Below are positions 54,968-59,315 of a stretch of 64,000 nt of DNA, one piece after another. The stretch is taken from positions 186,001 through 250,000 of the forward strand of contig CAOJOK010000001.1 of assembly GCA_948440265.1 (NCBI GenBank). The letters are read 5' to 3'. A model generated the notes under the pieces. It ran no database searches and was not told the origin of the DNA. It was given only the letters and a program-made list of their open reading frames with translations. Source of the stretch: an uncultured Clostridia bacterium. Its GTDB lineage: Bacteria > Bacillota > Clostridia > Christensenellales > Pumilibacteraceae. How positions within the stretch are numbered: the first letter of the stretch is position 1; every line of letters starts with the position of its first letter. The position numbers and the translations under genes were made by a program.

Positions 54968-56137
54968 TCAGTCTAAATCTCCAAGGTCTTCGTCAAACAC
55001 GCTGTCGTCCAAAATTTCTTCTTCGACGGGATTATCTTCTTCCACCGCTTTTTCTTCCGCTTTCTTGATTTCCACAAATTGCGAATACGGTCTGACGTCT
55101 ATTTTCCAACCTGTAAGTCTTGCAGCCAGACGAGCGTTTTGTCCGTCCTTACCGATTGCAAGCGACAACTTATCGTCATCGACAACGACTCTCGCAATCT
55201 TTTCGTCGTCGCTTACCTCCACAGCGATAACCTGTGCCGGGCTTAAAGCGCGCGCAATAAATTCCAAAATATCGGGGCACCAAGAAATTATATCTATCTT
55301 TTCTCCGCCGAGTTCGTTTACGATTGCATTGACGCGCATACCGCGATTGCCAACGCAAGCGCCGACCGCGTCGATACTCTTTTCTTCAGTATACACCGCC
55401 ATTTTCGTGCGGTATCCCGCCTCACGGACAATTGCTTTAATCGTAACAAGTTGATTGGCAACTTCGGGAACTTCGAGTTCGAAAAGCTTTCTGACAAAAC
55501 CGGCTACCGTTCTGGAAACAAGCACTTGCGGACCTTTCGGACCGGTACGAATCTTTTTCACAAAAACTTTAACCTTATCGCCGATATTGAACTTATCTCC
55601 GGGTGCTTGGTCCTGCGGCATCATCATAGCTTCTATGCGATTGATTTCTACATAGACGTTTTTGCCGTCTTTAACCTGGTCGATTCTTCTGACAATACCC
55701 GTAACAAGGTCACCCTCTTTTTGGGCAAGCTCGGCATAAGCCATTTCGCCTTCTACTTCGTGAAGCTTTTGATAAATCACCTGCTTGGCTGTCTGCGCAG
55801 CAATACGTCCGAACTCTTTCGGCAAAACTTCTTCGCAGACTCTCTCGCCCACTTTATACTTTTTGTTGATGAGCCGAGCATCTTCAAGGCTGATTTCGGT
55901 ATCCTTGTTTTCTACAACTTCGACAATATTTCTGTATGCAAGAATTTTAATCTTATTTGTTTCGGGAAAAAGTTTCACTTCGATAGCTTGCGCACTCCCC
56001 GTATGCTTTTTATAAGCTATAACAAGTGCGGATTCCAAAGCTTCGATAAAAACTTCCTTTTTTATGCGTTTTTCACGCTCCAATGCATCCAATGCCAAGA
56101 AAAAATCTTTTTTGACTATTTCTTTCTTTGCAGCCAT
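54968..56137 (-). CDS. nusA: Transcription termination/antitermination factor NusA
   Basis: A 389-residue protein: N-terminal polymerase-binding domain, S1 domain (about 135-200), KH1 and KH2 with GNRGMRVNAIVNELGGEKID and AIGKDGQNARLAARLTGWKID, and an acidic tail. TTTTGGAGGAG precedes the ATG. Confidence 0.98.
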   Translation of the reverse strand: MAAKKEIVKKDFFLALDALEREKRIKKEVFIEALESALVIAYKKHTGSAQAIEVKLFPETNKIKILAYRNIVEVVENKDTEISLEDARLINKKYKVGERVCEEVLPKEFGRIAAQTAKQVIYQKLHEVEGEMAYAELAQKEGDLVTGIVRRIDQVKDGKNVYVEINRIEAMMMPQDQAPGDKFNIGDKVKVFVKKIRTGPKGPQVLVSRTVAGFVRKLFELEVPEVANQLVTIKAIVREAGYRTKMAVYTEEKSIDAVGACVGNRGMRVNAIVNELGGEKIDIISWCPDILEFIARALSPAQVIAVEVSDDEKIARVVVDDDKLSLAIGKDGQNARLAARLTGWKIDVRPYSQFVEIKKAEEKAVEEDNPVEEEILDDSVFDEDLGDLD

Positions 56138-56161: not shown

Positions 56162-56623
56162 TTACTCGAATTTTACCAAAGGTCGAACCAAAGCAACCTT
56201 CGTCATTTCCAACTTTAACTCGCGTCCCGCTGTTTCAATGGTAATCGTATGCTCCGCTTTTTCTTTTAAAATGCCCTCGTATACTTTCTTACCCATATGC
56301 GGCGCGTAGAGCTTTACTTCCACTTCGCGTCCGTAATTTCTTTCGTAATCGCGTTGCTTTTTAAACGGTCTGTCCAGCCCCGGCGACGATATATTGAGCA
56401 CATAAGCGTCCTTAATCGGGTCGGCTTCGTCAAGTATAGGGTTTACCGCATTATGAACCACTTCGCAATCATCCAAGGTCACTCCGCGCGGAATATCGAT
56501 AAAGACCGTCAGATTCATCTGACCGTACTTTTTTACGAACTCGATATCCACAATCTCATAACCGAGATTTTCCACCGTCGTTCTAATCAAACCGTCCACA
56601 ACGTCAACAGTTTTTTCAGCCAT
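56162..56623 (-). CDS. rimP: Ribosome maturation factor RimP
   Basis: A 153-residue 30S maturation factor. The VENLGYEIVDIEFVKKYGQMNL start and the ISSPGLDRPFKKQRDYERN block are conserved. The ATG at 56623 has AGGAGGAG upstream; the codons further upstream lie in the leader. First gene of the long translation operon. Confidence 0.96.
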   Translation of the reverse strand: MAEKTVDVVDGLIRTTVENLGYEIVDIEFVKKYGQMNLTVFIDIPRGVTLDDCEVVHNAVNPILDEADPIKDAYVLNISSPGLDRPFKKQRDYERNYGREVEVKLYAPHMGKKVYEGILKEKAEHTITIETAGRELKLEMTKVALVRPLVKFE

Positions 56624-56694
56624 ACTCCTCCTAATAAACTTTGAGAGCGGACCGTCAAGCCCACTCTCTAAGTCTACCATATTTAACTGTGAAT

Positions 56695-56723
56695 ATTATA
56701 TCACGTTGTCGCAAAAAAATCAA
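56695..56723 (-). promoter_or_regulatory. Sigma-A promoter of the rimP-nusA-infB operon
   Basis: TTGATT (56718-56723), a 17-nt spacer and TATAAT (56695-56700). The -35 overlaps the stop of the PolC-like gene, so this operon has its own promoter. The leader can fold a GAGAG-based hairpin (near 56643-56668). Confidence 0.85.
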
Positions 56724-58282
56724 GCATTTGTGCGCATCATTTCTATAAGTTTTATAAAAACTTCGGCAGTGGCAATCGCATCGTAAATGCCGCGATGAGC
56801 GCTCAAATTCTCCACACCGAAATGCTTTGTCAAATTAGACAGCTTATATCTTCTGAGCGTCGGCAAATATTTTTTTGCCAGCACAATCGTATCCATCATT
56901 TCGTTTTCAAAATATATATTCTGCCTTGCTCCGTTTACCGCAATAAACCCGTAATCGAATTGCACATTCTGTCCGACCAAAATAGTGTTATAAGAATACT
57001 TATAGAAATCCAGCAGTACTTCGTCGATAAGCGGCTGTCCCATAACGTCGCTGTCTTTGATACCCGTAAGTTGTGTAATCTTTTCCGGTATCGATATCTT
57101 GGGGTCTATATAAGTATTGAATGTATCTTGGAATTTCCCGTCTACGATTCTGACGGCGCCTATCTCAATAATTCTGTCGTTTTTGGGGGCAAAACCCGTC
57201 GTTTCCAAATCGAAAACACAAAATGTCTTTCCCAATAAAAAAGGTTCCGGCTCCTTGACTACATCAAAAAGAGTGGCTTGTTTTACGGATACAAACGGTT
57301 GCGGAAAGACCGAATGATATTCGTCGTCCACACGTCTGCGCAATCTGTTTATTTTAAAATTCTTCGGCAAAGTACACAGGCATATATCGTTAGGCCAAAA
57401 AGTAACCTGACCTTCTCTCACATTGTCTACCGTCAGTTTGCCGCGAGCGACTATCTGTTTTCCGTCTTTCAAAAGAGTAATCTGATTTTCCGTTTTTTTA
57501 TTCGGAAAATATAGACAGGATATACTCCCCGTAAAATCGGAAAGAGTGAATTTATAGTATTTTCTATCGGGATTGTCTCGCTTCGCTAGTTCACGAAATC
57601 CGGAAATAGTACCGCACAAAACCACTCCGACGGCTTCGCTTTTTGCATCTTCTATGTATTTGGCTTTTTCATAAACAATTTTGCCTATAAATTCTTCCAC
57701 GTTTTCAGGCTGTATGACCCTTCCCAAATTATAATCGTCCAGCTTAAAACGACTTTTTTCGTCTTCCATTTCCCGCTCGATTTCGTCAATGCCTTCCGAA
57801 TCGTCATCATCTACATTAACGAACTTTATCACCGTCGGTTCGCAGTAAAGACTTTTGATATGTTCCTCGATTTTTTTACCTGCGCTCTTTTTATTGCAGT
57901 AATCGCAAACCGAATCGCTCATACGAAAAGTGATAAATATTTTTCCGTCCGAAAAATCAGTTACTATGTCTTCTTGCGTTACCATAGTGGAAAGCATAGG
58001 AAACTGCTTTAAAAACTCTAAAATCTCGGGGATAAAAAAGTCTCTGTCGAAATGACTTTTGACCAGCTTAATTTCTATATTGGAAAAATCGCCGTTAAAA
58101 ACTCTTTTAACCGCAGTGGCTATCGCGTCCTTCTGTGAAAAAACGTCATTCTCTCGACTTTCCGGATAAGCAAAAGTCAAAGTCAAAAGCTCGCCTTCTA
58201 TAACGAACTGCGCGTTTCTCAACCGCAAATAAGCGAATTTCTCATTCGTTATTTCATTGAATTTATCAACAAACGTCTGCAA
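56720..58282 (-). CDS. PolC-like exonuclease: PolC N-terminal region, OB fold and DEDDh exonuclease, without PHP or polymerase
   Basis: A 520-residue protein at the place where polC normally lies (ispG, polC, rimP). Residues 1-185 resemble the PolC N-terminal domain, about 186-305 the OB fold (YYKFTLSDFTGSISCLYFP), and 350-515 the proofreading exonuclease: D358 and E360 in FDLETTG, D443 in QFDYGF, H496 and D501 in HRGIYDAIATA. In PolC the exonuclease is inserted in the PHP domain; here no PHP half (no HLHT or TDH motif) and no polymerase remain, and the operon leaves no space for them. QATLF at 335-339 resembles a beta-clamp binding motif. A CxxC pair (C126, C129) is also present. Its start lies inside the ispG end. 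It is likely active as a 3'-5' exonuclease. Confidence 0.85.
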   Translation of the reverse strand: MQTFVDKFNEITNEKFAYLRLRNAQFVIEGELLTLTFAYPESRENDVFSQKDAIATAVKRVFNGDFSNIEIKLVKSHFDRDFFIPEILEFLKQFPMLSTMVTQEDIVTDFSDGKIFITFRMSDSVCDYCNKKSAGKKIEEHIKSLYCEPTVIKFVNVDDDDSEGIDEIEREMEDEKSRFKLDDYNLGRVIQPENVEEFIGKIVYEKAKYIEDAKSEAVGVVLCGTISGFRELAKRDNPDRKYYKFTLSDFTGSISCLYFPNKKTENQITLLKDGKQIVARGKLTVDNVREGQVTFWPNDICLCTLPKNFKINRLRRRVDDEYHSVFPQPFVSVKQATLFDVVKEPEPFLLGKTFCVFDLETTGFAPKNDRIIEIGAVRIVDGKFQDTFNTYIDPKISIPEKITQLTGIKDSDVMGQPLIDEVLLDFYKYSYNTILVGQNVQFDYGFIAVNGARQNIYFENEMMDTIVLAKKYLPTLRRYKLSNLTKHFGVENLSAHRGIYDAIATAEVFIKLIEMMRTNA

Positions 58283-59315
58283 TCAATCTTCCTACCTTTT
58301 GTTTAAACTCTGCAACCGCCTTGTCAAACGGTAAATTTGCCGTTATTTTTCCTTTTTCGAAAATAACGGCTTTTTCACTGCCGCCCGCTATACCGATATC
58401 GGCGTCCTTTGCTTCTCCCGGTCCATTTACGACGCAACCCATAACCGCAATTTTAAGTCGTTTTTCCACCCCCTTGACAAGCTCGCCGATTTCACTCGCC
58501 AATTTGGGCATATCATAATGGCATCTCGAACAGGTCGGGCAGGAAACCACTTCGCAGTAATCTCTCAAATTCAATGCTTTTAAAATATCGACGGCAGCAT
58601 AAACTTCTTTAACCGGGTCGCCAGTTAACGAAACTCTGATTGTATTTCCTATACCGTCGGCAAGCAAAGTTCCTATTCCTATTGCGGATTTAATGTTCCC
58701 CATTCCCTCGCCGCCGGACTCCGTCACGCCTATATGCAGCGGATAATCGCACTGCTTATTTATAAGCCTATATGTTTCTATTGTCGTCATAACAGACGAA
58801 GATTTCGCCGAAACAACTATGTCGTAAAAGCCGAAACGCTCTAAAAGAGCAACCCCTTTCAGTGCACTCTCAGAAAGCGCTTTCGCCCCCGAACCGTACT
58901 TGCTTTCCAATTCTTTTTCAATAGAGCCGCCGTTAACTCCCACTCTTATAGCCACGCCGTTGGCTCTGCACGCGTCTGCCACCAAGCGAACTTTATCTTC
59001 GCCGCCGATATTTCCGGGGTTTATTCTGACCTTGGAAAATCCGATTTCTCCGCATTTGACCGCAAGCCGATAATCGAACTGAATATCCGCAACAAGCGGC
59101 ACGTCGGCAAATTCTTTGATTAGCATTTTAGCACATTCGATGTCATTGTCATCTGAAATCGCAAGCCGAATTATATCACAGCCCGCACTTTTCAGCCTTT
59201 TGATTTGCTCTGAGCAGGCATTGAAATCCGAAGACGAGCAATTAAGCATCGACTGTACGGATACGGGAGCGTCCTCTCCCACTTTTATCTTTCCCACTTG
59301 AACGACTTTTTTCAT
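58266..59315 (-). CDS. ispG: 4-hydroxy-3-methylbut-2-en-1-yl diphosphate synthase
   Basis: A 349-residue MEP-pathway enzyme: TIM barrel plus iron-sulfur domain. The 4Fe-4S cysteines are in CPTCSRC and MGCVVNGPGEA. It follows rseP, as in clostridia, and overlaps the PolC-like gene by 17 nt. Confidence 0.97.
   Translation of the reverse strand: MKKVVQVGKIKVGEDAPVSVQSMLNCSSSDFNACSEQIKRLKSAGCDIIRLAISDDNDIECAKMLIKEFADVPLVADIQFDYRLAVKCGEIGFSKVRINPGNIGGEDKVRLVADACRANGVAIRVGVNGGSIEKELESKYGSGAKALSESALKGVALLERFGFYDIVVSAKSSSVMTTIETYRLINKQCDYPLHIGVTESGGEGMGNIKSAIGIGTLLADGIGNTIRVSLTGDPVKEVYAAVDILKALNLRDYCEVVSCPTCSRCHYDMPKLASEIGELVKGVEKRLKIAVMGCVVNGPGEAKDADIGIAGGSEKAVIFEKGKITANLPFDKAVAEFKQKVGRLIADVC

Follow-up and report, generated by a model that had tools for sequence, protein, structure and literature searches.

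In this work we analyzed a gene that occupies the polC slot, between ispG and rimP, in a 64,000-nucleotide stretch of DNA (the window) from an uncultured bacterium of the order Christensenellales, class Clostridia. The gene encodes a stand-alone protein of 520 residues that carries the N-terminal region, the OB fold and the DEDDh exonuclease of PolC, and it resides in a genome where no PolC was detected over the model cut-off. From the combined analysis we consider it probable that this PolC-derived protein acts in trans as a proofreader for DnaE, and it is predicted to be held on the sliding clamp by a QxxLF-type motif. The gene and its parts are the following:

56720..58282, minus strand: gene for the stand-alone PolC-derived protein (520 amino acids, TTG start), in the polC slot; from the open reading frame (ORF), Pfam and related loci
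57713..58282, minus strand: PolC-type N-terminal region, residues 1-190; from the profile-profile match to 32 PolC proteins, Pfam giving NII at E 0.025 only
57368..57712, minus strand: OB-fold region, residues 191-305; Pfam PF01336 at residues 220-290 (E 5e-8), colinear with PolC
57266..57280, minus strand: QATLF, residues 335-339, predicted sliding-clamp-binding motif in the linker; 119 of 121 proteins, consensus QxxLF (PMC12309361)
56726..57226, minus strand: DEDDh 3'-5' exonuclease domain, residues 353-519, with D358, E360, D443, H496 and D501; from Pfam, alignment and structure matches

A previous reading of this DNA from its letters alone (the sequence-only reading) had placed a 520-residue protein in the polC slot and had assigned to it the PolC N-terminal domain, an OB fold and all five DEDDh residues; the minus-strand ORF between ispG and rimP and the domain analyses bear out both claims. 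In Pfam, an RNase_T exonuclease was identified at residues 356-509 (E 3.7e-35), and the PolC N-terminal domain gave a sub-threshold match at residues 85-175 (E 0.025); neither a PHP nor a polymerase domain was found in the 520 residues by Pfam at E values up to 1. In a profile-profile comparison of 90 stand-alone proteins with the N-terminal parts of 32 PolC proteins, the N-terminal part alone matched PolC with a probability of 96.7% (E 3.7e-10, 135 columns), and together with the OB fold it gave a colinear match at 99.6% (E 4.4e-24). The five catalytic residues are present in the window protein and invariant across the 90 aligned members of the family, i.e. 89 of the 120 homologues listed plus the window protein, and 17 of the 20 invariant columns of this alignment lie inside the exonuclease. 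Out of 7996 candidates scored, the protein search yielded 352 homologues; among the 120 listed, 112 have a length of 500-540 amino acids, and the named sources are Clostridia, Clostridiales and, once, a Christensenellaceae bacterium. When the window protein is added to these 120, the catalytic residues are intact in 120 of 121 proteins, and the remaining one, P0059, is a partial sequence. Given these homologues, and the like length and conserved residues of those listed, a chance ORF or a private frameshift can be excluded, in line with the earlier statement that the gene is not the result of a simple premature stop.

The same reading had proposed that neither half of the PHP domain is left. 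In agreement with this, there is no Pfam match to PHP, the stretch between the OB fold and the exonuclease spans 56 residues in the window protein versus 97-111 in 20 PolC proteins from its order, and the chain ends with the last exonuclease helix of the predicted structure. In the six of these 20 PolC proteins that were printed as an alignment, the first PHP half sits in that stretch. The proposal that only the proofreading module had been kept is correct in that the exonuclease was retained, but the N-terminal region and the OB fold were kept as well. Thus the N-terminal region, the OB fold and the DEDDh exonuclease of PolC were all found, whereas the split PHP domain, the C-family polymerase core and the C-terminal clamp-binding motif were not; given the negative PHP and polymerase searches, we do not class the protein as PolC. 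Its best NCBIfam match is nevertheless PolC (PRK00448, E 5.2e-54), and its scores stay below the cut-offs of both the PolC model TIGR01405 (151.3 versus 1043.45 bits) and the DnaQ equivalog TIGR01406 (95.6 versus 222.7 bits). The predicted structure has a mean predicted local distance difference test score (pLDDT) of 93.9 and a predicted template modelling score (pTM) of 0.66, and its best Foldseek match is the PolC structure 9qpc, over 390 columns. VIA-align on the 9qpc chain spanned residues 196-520 with a root-mean-square deviation of 17.3, which suggests that in the model the domains may be placed differently than in 9qpc. The VIA-align list was filled by the exonuclease domain, whose structural matches are PolC, DinG and the E. 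coli epsilon exonucleases, and the N-terminal region was barely probed by structure.

It could be argued that the exonuclease is not that of PolC, but a small DnaQ-like exonuclease that was fused to a PolC remnant and replaced the original domain. The exonuclease-domain tree, a check proposed in the sequence-only reading, is the evidence that would favor this idea. The signal in this tree was too low. With 82 rows the stand-alone group required two changes; when the long rows and one duplicate were removed (76 rows), the stand-alone proteins formed one group at 94%, a branch without a support star, and the trimmed tree showed three groups, the stand-alone proteins, the small free exonucleases and PolC, but did not settle their placement relative to one another. 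Holding the stand-alone proteins together with the PolC proteins of the same order gives a tree that is at least as good (likelihood +9.67, p-AU 0.637, where AU denotes the approximately unbiased test), and the domain order, the slot, the N-terminal homology and the top NCBIfam match are all PolC-like; a DnaQ-like fusion is consequently very improbable. A phage origin was also considered and rejected: a tblastn search of phage sequences matched 103 records, in none of which 80% of the query was covered at a single place. The eight records listed cover 30-44% of it starting at residue 287 at the earliest, and the PHROGs matches comprise the exonuclease part only.

At 98.37% completeness and 0% contamination (1.86 Mb in 29 contigs), the genome contains just one match to PF07733, the domain of C-family polymerases. 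This match lies in a 1224-residue protein (G000:C14:28341-32015, equal to L002:4342-8016) that was identified as DnaE by NCBIfam (PRK06826, 1398.7 bits versus a cut-off of 1260). The PolC model TIGR01405 had no match over its cut-off in the whole genome, the best match being the stand-alone gene itself. These results support the idea that the lineage replicates with a DnaE-type polymerase, and speak against the other option contemplated at the outset, a full PolC encoded elsewhere. A separate DEDDh exonuclease in a genome whose one PF07733 match is DnaE is, in turn, a feature of the epsilon type. With its intact PHP site this DnaE is probably a DnaE1, which is also the type that surveys assign to clostridial DnaE (PMC12926913). 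RNase_T has only two matches in the genome, at E 5.5e-36 for the window protein and, much weaker, at E 7.5e-9 for a 441-residue frame on C14. For the other RNase_T protein (L005:736-2001, 421 residues) the best NCBIfam match is PRK06195, with 41 bits versus 373, far below the cut-off.

The distribution of both proteins was analyzed in a sample of 247 genomes of the order, comparing in each genome the stand-alone profile and the PolC model, and considering as strong a stand-alone match with E at most 1e-85. PolC was found in 86 genomes and a strong stand-alone match in 124; no genome had both and 37 had neither. The PolC genomes include 81 over the cut-off and five below it with long partial matches (E 1e-149 to 1e-277), and the top match to the stand-alone profile in any of them was E 5e-71. 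Among the 37 genomes with neither, 34 belong to families f16 (13), f19 (17), f1 genus g6 (3) and f29 (1), and the other three, G037 (96% complete), G096 (88%) and G062 (81%), come from PolC-bearing families. In 16 families no sampled genome has PolC, and in 14 of these there is a strong stand-alone match. At least 98% completeness was reached by 42 of the 161 PolC-less genomes; PF07733 matches number one in 147 of the 161, two in nine and none in five, and are two or more in 85 of the 86 PolC genomes. In this context, the idea that a full-length PolC was missed by the assembly, or was deleted privately in this genome, is hardly credible; the assembly is indeed in 29 contigs and short of full completeness, but in the window the stand-alone gene is immediately flanked by ispG and rimP, which leaves no space for PolC, and both the absence of PolC across whole families and the single PF07733 match recur in genome after genome.

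Outside the order, PolC was detected at E 1e-140 in 269 of 292 genomes of the class; 12 of the 23 misses fall inside the order and at least eight outside. At E 1e-72, all 23 stand-alone-profile matches in the class outside the order were frames of 1334-1535 residues, i.e. of PolC length, that matched through the exonuclease part only, and among 299 genomes of the phylum, at E 1e-78, the window's own genome gave the sole match, both thresholds being such that decayed or distant stand-alone forms would be missed. Two further observations concern other genomes without a PolC match. G037 (family f10, within the order; L116, L149) has neither a PolC match nor a full-length stand-alone match, and its DnaE was counted among those of the PolC-bearing families, which lack the insertion described below; a separate loss of PolC is possible in this case. 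In the class sample, G279, G372 and G410 (family f64, genus g143; outside the order) show no match to PolC and no stand-alone protein, and here too PolC may have been lost separately.

The neighbours that define the slot in the window are the following:

58266..59315, minus strand: ispG, upstream neighbour marking the polC slot; conserved in related loci
56162..56680, minus strand: rimP, downstream neighbour marking the polC slot; conserved in related loci
54968..56137, minus strand: nusA, next gene downstream of rimP; from the window ORFs and related loci

Where the stand-alone gene of a related locus is active (42 loci), ispG or rseP is always upstream, and in 37 of the 42 rimP or nusA is additionally present downstream. 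For PolC loci of the same order, ispG or rseP is upstream in 16 of 20 and both sides are conserved in seven of 20; for those of other orders the figures are six and two of 12, respectively. The end of ispG and the start of the stand-alone gene share 17 bases (58266-58282). Such an overlap with ispG occurs in 19 of the 42 active loci and in 14 of 15 loci with a dead exonuclease (see below), and its recurrence suggests translational coupling.

A tree of the flanking genes (IspG, NusA, RimP and RseP; 929 columns) was built for the window and 74 of 81 loci, the remaining seven being dropped for having too few genes; no root was inferred, and G037, G096 and G062 are absent from it. In this tree a single branch with 100% support separates 58 PolC-less rows from 17 PolC rows, so that a single origin is likely. 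A 10-column insertion in the polymerase part of DnaE (residues 525-534 of the DnaE encoded in this genome) marks the same PolC-less families: it is filled in at least 80% of 25 DnaE proteins from PolC-less families and in at most 10% of 16 from PolC-bearing families, the latter including G037 and G096, both without a PolC match. As full-length PolC is present in other orders, the change would be a loss rather than a gain, and it is likely that a single event at the root of a large clade of the order removed the polymerase together with the two PHP halves and the clamp motif at the C-terminus. The possibility that close relatives carry an intact polC and this genome a deletion does not hold, given that the relatives in the order with an intact polC belong to other families and that all the PolC-less rows lie on one side of one branch, which rules out a private deletion.

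A conserved feature that the sequence-only reading did not include is found in the linker. Q335 is invariant in the 90 aligned proteins, 89 of which fit the pattern Qxx[LIMVF][FL]; considering the 120 homologues listed and the window protein, the motif fits in 119 of 121, with P0053 and P0080 as exceptions. Elsewhere in the 90 proteins the pattern starts 0.0012 times per residue (55 of 44595), and so about 0.05 motifs would be expected by chance in a 40-residue linker. QxxLF is the clamp-binding consensus, and in Bacillus subtilis PolC it is C-terminal (PMC12309361); a motif of this type is also close to the C-terminus in 19 of the 20 PolC proteins of the same order. The QATLF sequence is therefore predicted to be a clamp-binding motif, and the free protein, which lacks the motif of PolC along with the polymerase, carries such a motif at a different position. 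The DnaE proteins have a clamp-type motif of their own, at the usual place, in 40 of the 41 that were read.

A sequence of events that could have led to this arrangement starts from a likely ancestral role in which the exonuclease of PolC proofread DnaE in trans. In B. subtilis, the PolC exonuclease corrects the errors of DnaE in trans within a complex of DnaE, PolC and template (PMC5627055), and Clostridia with PolC and DnaE1 are described as mostly having three active proofreaders, the PHP domain of PolC, the PHP domain of DnaE1 and the PolC exonuclease (PMC12926913). Synthesis by PolC would then have become dispensable, with loss of the polymerase, the PHP halves and the C-terminal clamp motif, while the exonuclease was retained with the N-terminal region and the OB fold as a free protein. 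The QxxLF motif, in the linker that replaces the first PHP half, would tether this protein to the clamp, and the tethered exonuclease may work at the 3' ends produced by DnaE. As judged from gene content, the clade retains a DnaE with a PHP site and the PolC exonuclease, and PolC synthesis is absent.

The fate of the active site was followed in 59 proteins of the slot, in which weak matches were included deliberately (58 distinct sequences, L012 and L021 being the same protein from two collections; L049 was omitted and another member of its genus was used). Both the active site and the motif are present in 41 proteins, 15 have neither, and three have kept the active site but not the motif; the reverse case, a dead protein that carries the motif, did not occur. 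The dead proteins (L050, L053, L057, L058, L060, L062-L065, L067, L072, L104-L106 and L114) belong to f1 genus g6, f16 and f19, and all come from the 34 genomes with neither PolC nor a strong stand-alone match, 16 of which were read, the other one being L066; because of the deliberate choice of weak matches, 15 of 59 should not be read as a rate for the whole order. The dead proteins are 485-551 residues long, and all 15 have ispG or rseP upstream. The ratio of nonsynonymous to synonymous changes (dN/dS) is 0.07-0.38 in pairs of dead proteins, for the 11 of 21 domain comparisons with unsaturated synonymous changes, a rough estimate with dS above 1. They appear to be pseudo-exonucleases kept under constraint, and they point to a second, structural role for the N-terminal region and the OB fold. 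At the same time, the motif is missing from every dead protein, which suggests that the nuclease is what clamp tethering serves. A small separate exonuclease was examined as a candidate to rescue the lineages with a dead slot protein; it is present in several of these genomes and in others none was found at E 1e-8, and since the same type occurs in PolC-bearing genomes (L069, L070), it is not a clear replacement. The opposite decay was also observed: L089, L094, L095, L096 and L098, from families f10 and f12 of the same order, are full-length PolC proteins in which the catalytic residues of the internal exonuclease are gone.

Several of these observations weigh against a clamp-held proofreader of DnaE. 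The PHP metal site of DnaE (HHDHEHCDH) is intact in all 41 DnaE proteins read, whether or not their family has PolC, and DnaE may thus proofread by itself. The exonuclease-domain tree shows no nesting of the stand-alone proteins within the PolC of the order. QxxLF is a general clamp motif, three proteins (L046, L066 and L108) are active without it, and the association between loss of the motif and loss of the active site amounts to four independent pairs, for which the sign test is not significant (median p 0.25). Finally, the catalytic residues were lost in 15 of the 59 slot proteins, in at least four changes on the flanking-gene tree, and the protein was retained, so that the exonuclease activity seems expendable in some lineages; its length, slot and low dN/dS suggest constraint without an active site and argue against a purely catalytic role, and they also qualify the emphasis that the sequence-only reading placed on proofreading.

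Two other functions deserve consideration in view of these points. If DnaE proofreads through its own PHP domain, the stand-alone protein could be a clamp-tethered nuclease for repair or end trimming, acting on 3' ends after replication (mismatch repair, flaps or gaps). We regard this as unlikely, because the gene sits in the polC slot and its product retains the N-terminal region and the OB fold of PolC, and because the PolC exonuclease is known to proofread DnaE in trans in B. subtilis (PMC5627055). The protein could also be mainly a structural subunit of the replisome, in which the N-terminal region and the OB fold join DnaE, the clamp loader, the single-stranded DNA-binding protein (SSB) or DNA, and the exonuclease is secondary and can be lost. 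The recurrent death of the exonuclease in proteins that keep their size, slot and low dN/dS favors this view, but the concentration of the invariant columns in the exonuclease and the intact catalytic residues of all complete homologues listed do not, and we judge it quite unlikely as the main function.

Returning to the stand-alone protein as a trans-acting proofreader, a wider hypothesis can be put forward tentatively: the clade might represent a further type of bacterial replication core, where DnaE is the sole polymerase and PolC has been reduced to a clamp-riding subunit, first as a second proofreader and, in some lineages, as a dead scaffold. If true, three stages of one transition would be present in one order, namely full PolC, free proofreader and pseudo-exonuclease. 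The clade offers a natural test case in which the polymerase half of PolC is gone, the proofreading half was kept and a clamp-type motif is in a new place; this suggests that such cells depend on PolC for its exonuclease more than for its synthesis. It is also predicted that PolC inhibitors would find no target in the clade; one of them is ibezapolstat, whose narrow spectrum has been attributed to which taxa carry polC (PMC13003532).

The main replicative polymerase sets recognized in surveys are DnaE1 alone, PolC with DnaE1, and PolC with DnaE3 (PMC3919608, PMC12926913). The 2013 survey reported some Clostridia with a single DnaE1 and some clostridial PolC proteins without the exonuclease, and left open the role of PolC beside a complete DnaE1 in Clostridia (PMC3919608); the 2026 survey was based solely on complete genomes (PMC12926913). 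In the accessible literature, preprints and most subscription journals being outside the search, no description of a stand-alone PolC exonuclease or of this clade was found. We place the protein with the trans-acting proofreaders and not with PolC. With PolC (TIGR01405, PRK00448) it shares the chromosomal slot and the succession of N-terminal region, OB fold and DEDDh exonuclease; in contrast to PolC, it is devoid of the PHP halves and the polymerase core, and its clamp-type motif sits in the linker, the C-terminal one of PolC being absent. Unlike DnaQ/epsilon of E. coli, its exonuclease is preceded by a PolC-type N-terminal region and an OB fold, and there is no evidence in it of a DnaE-binding tail of the epsilon type. 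The trans-proofreader of B. subtilis uses the same type of exonuclease on DnaE (PMC5627055); there it is contained within a full polymerase, whereas in the clade of the window it is free. The PolC variants of Clostridia and Negativicutes without an exonuclease described by Timinskas et al. (PMC3919608) represent another break-up of PolC in the same class, and they are the mirror image of the protein described here, given that in them the polymerase was kept and the exonuclease was lost.
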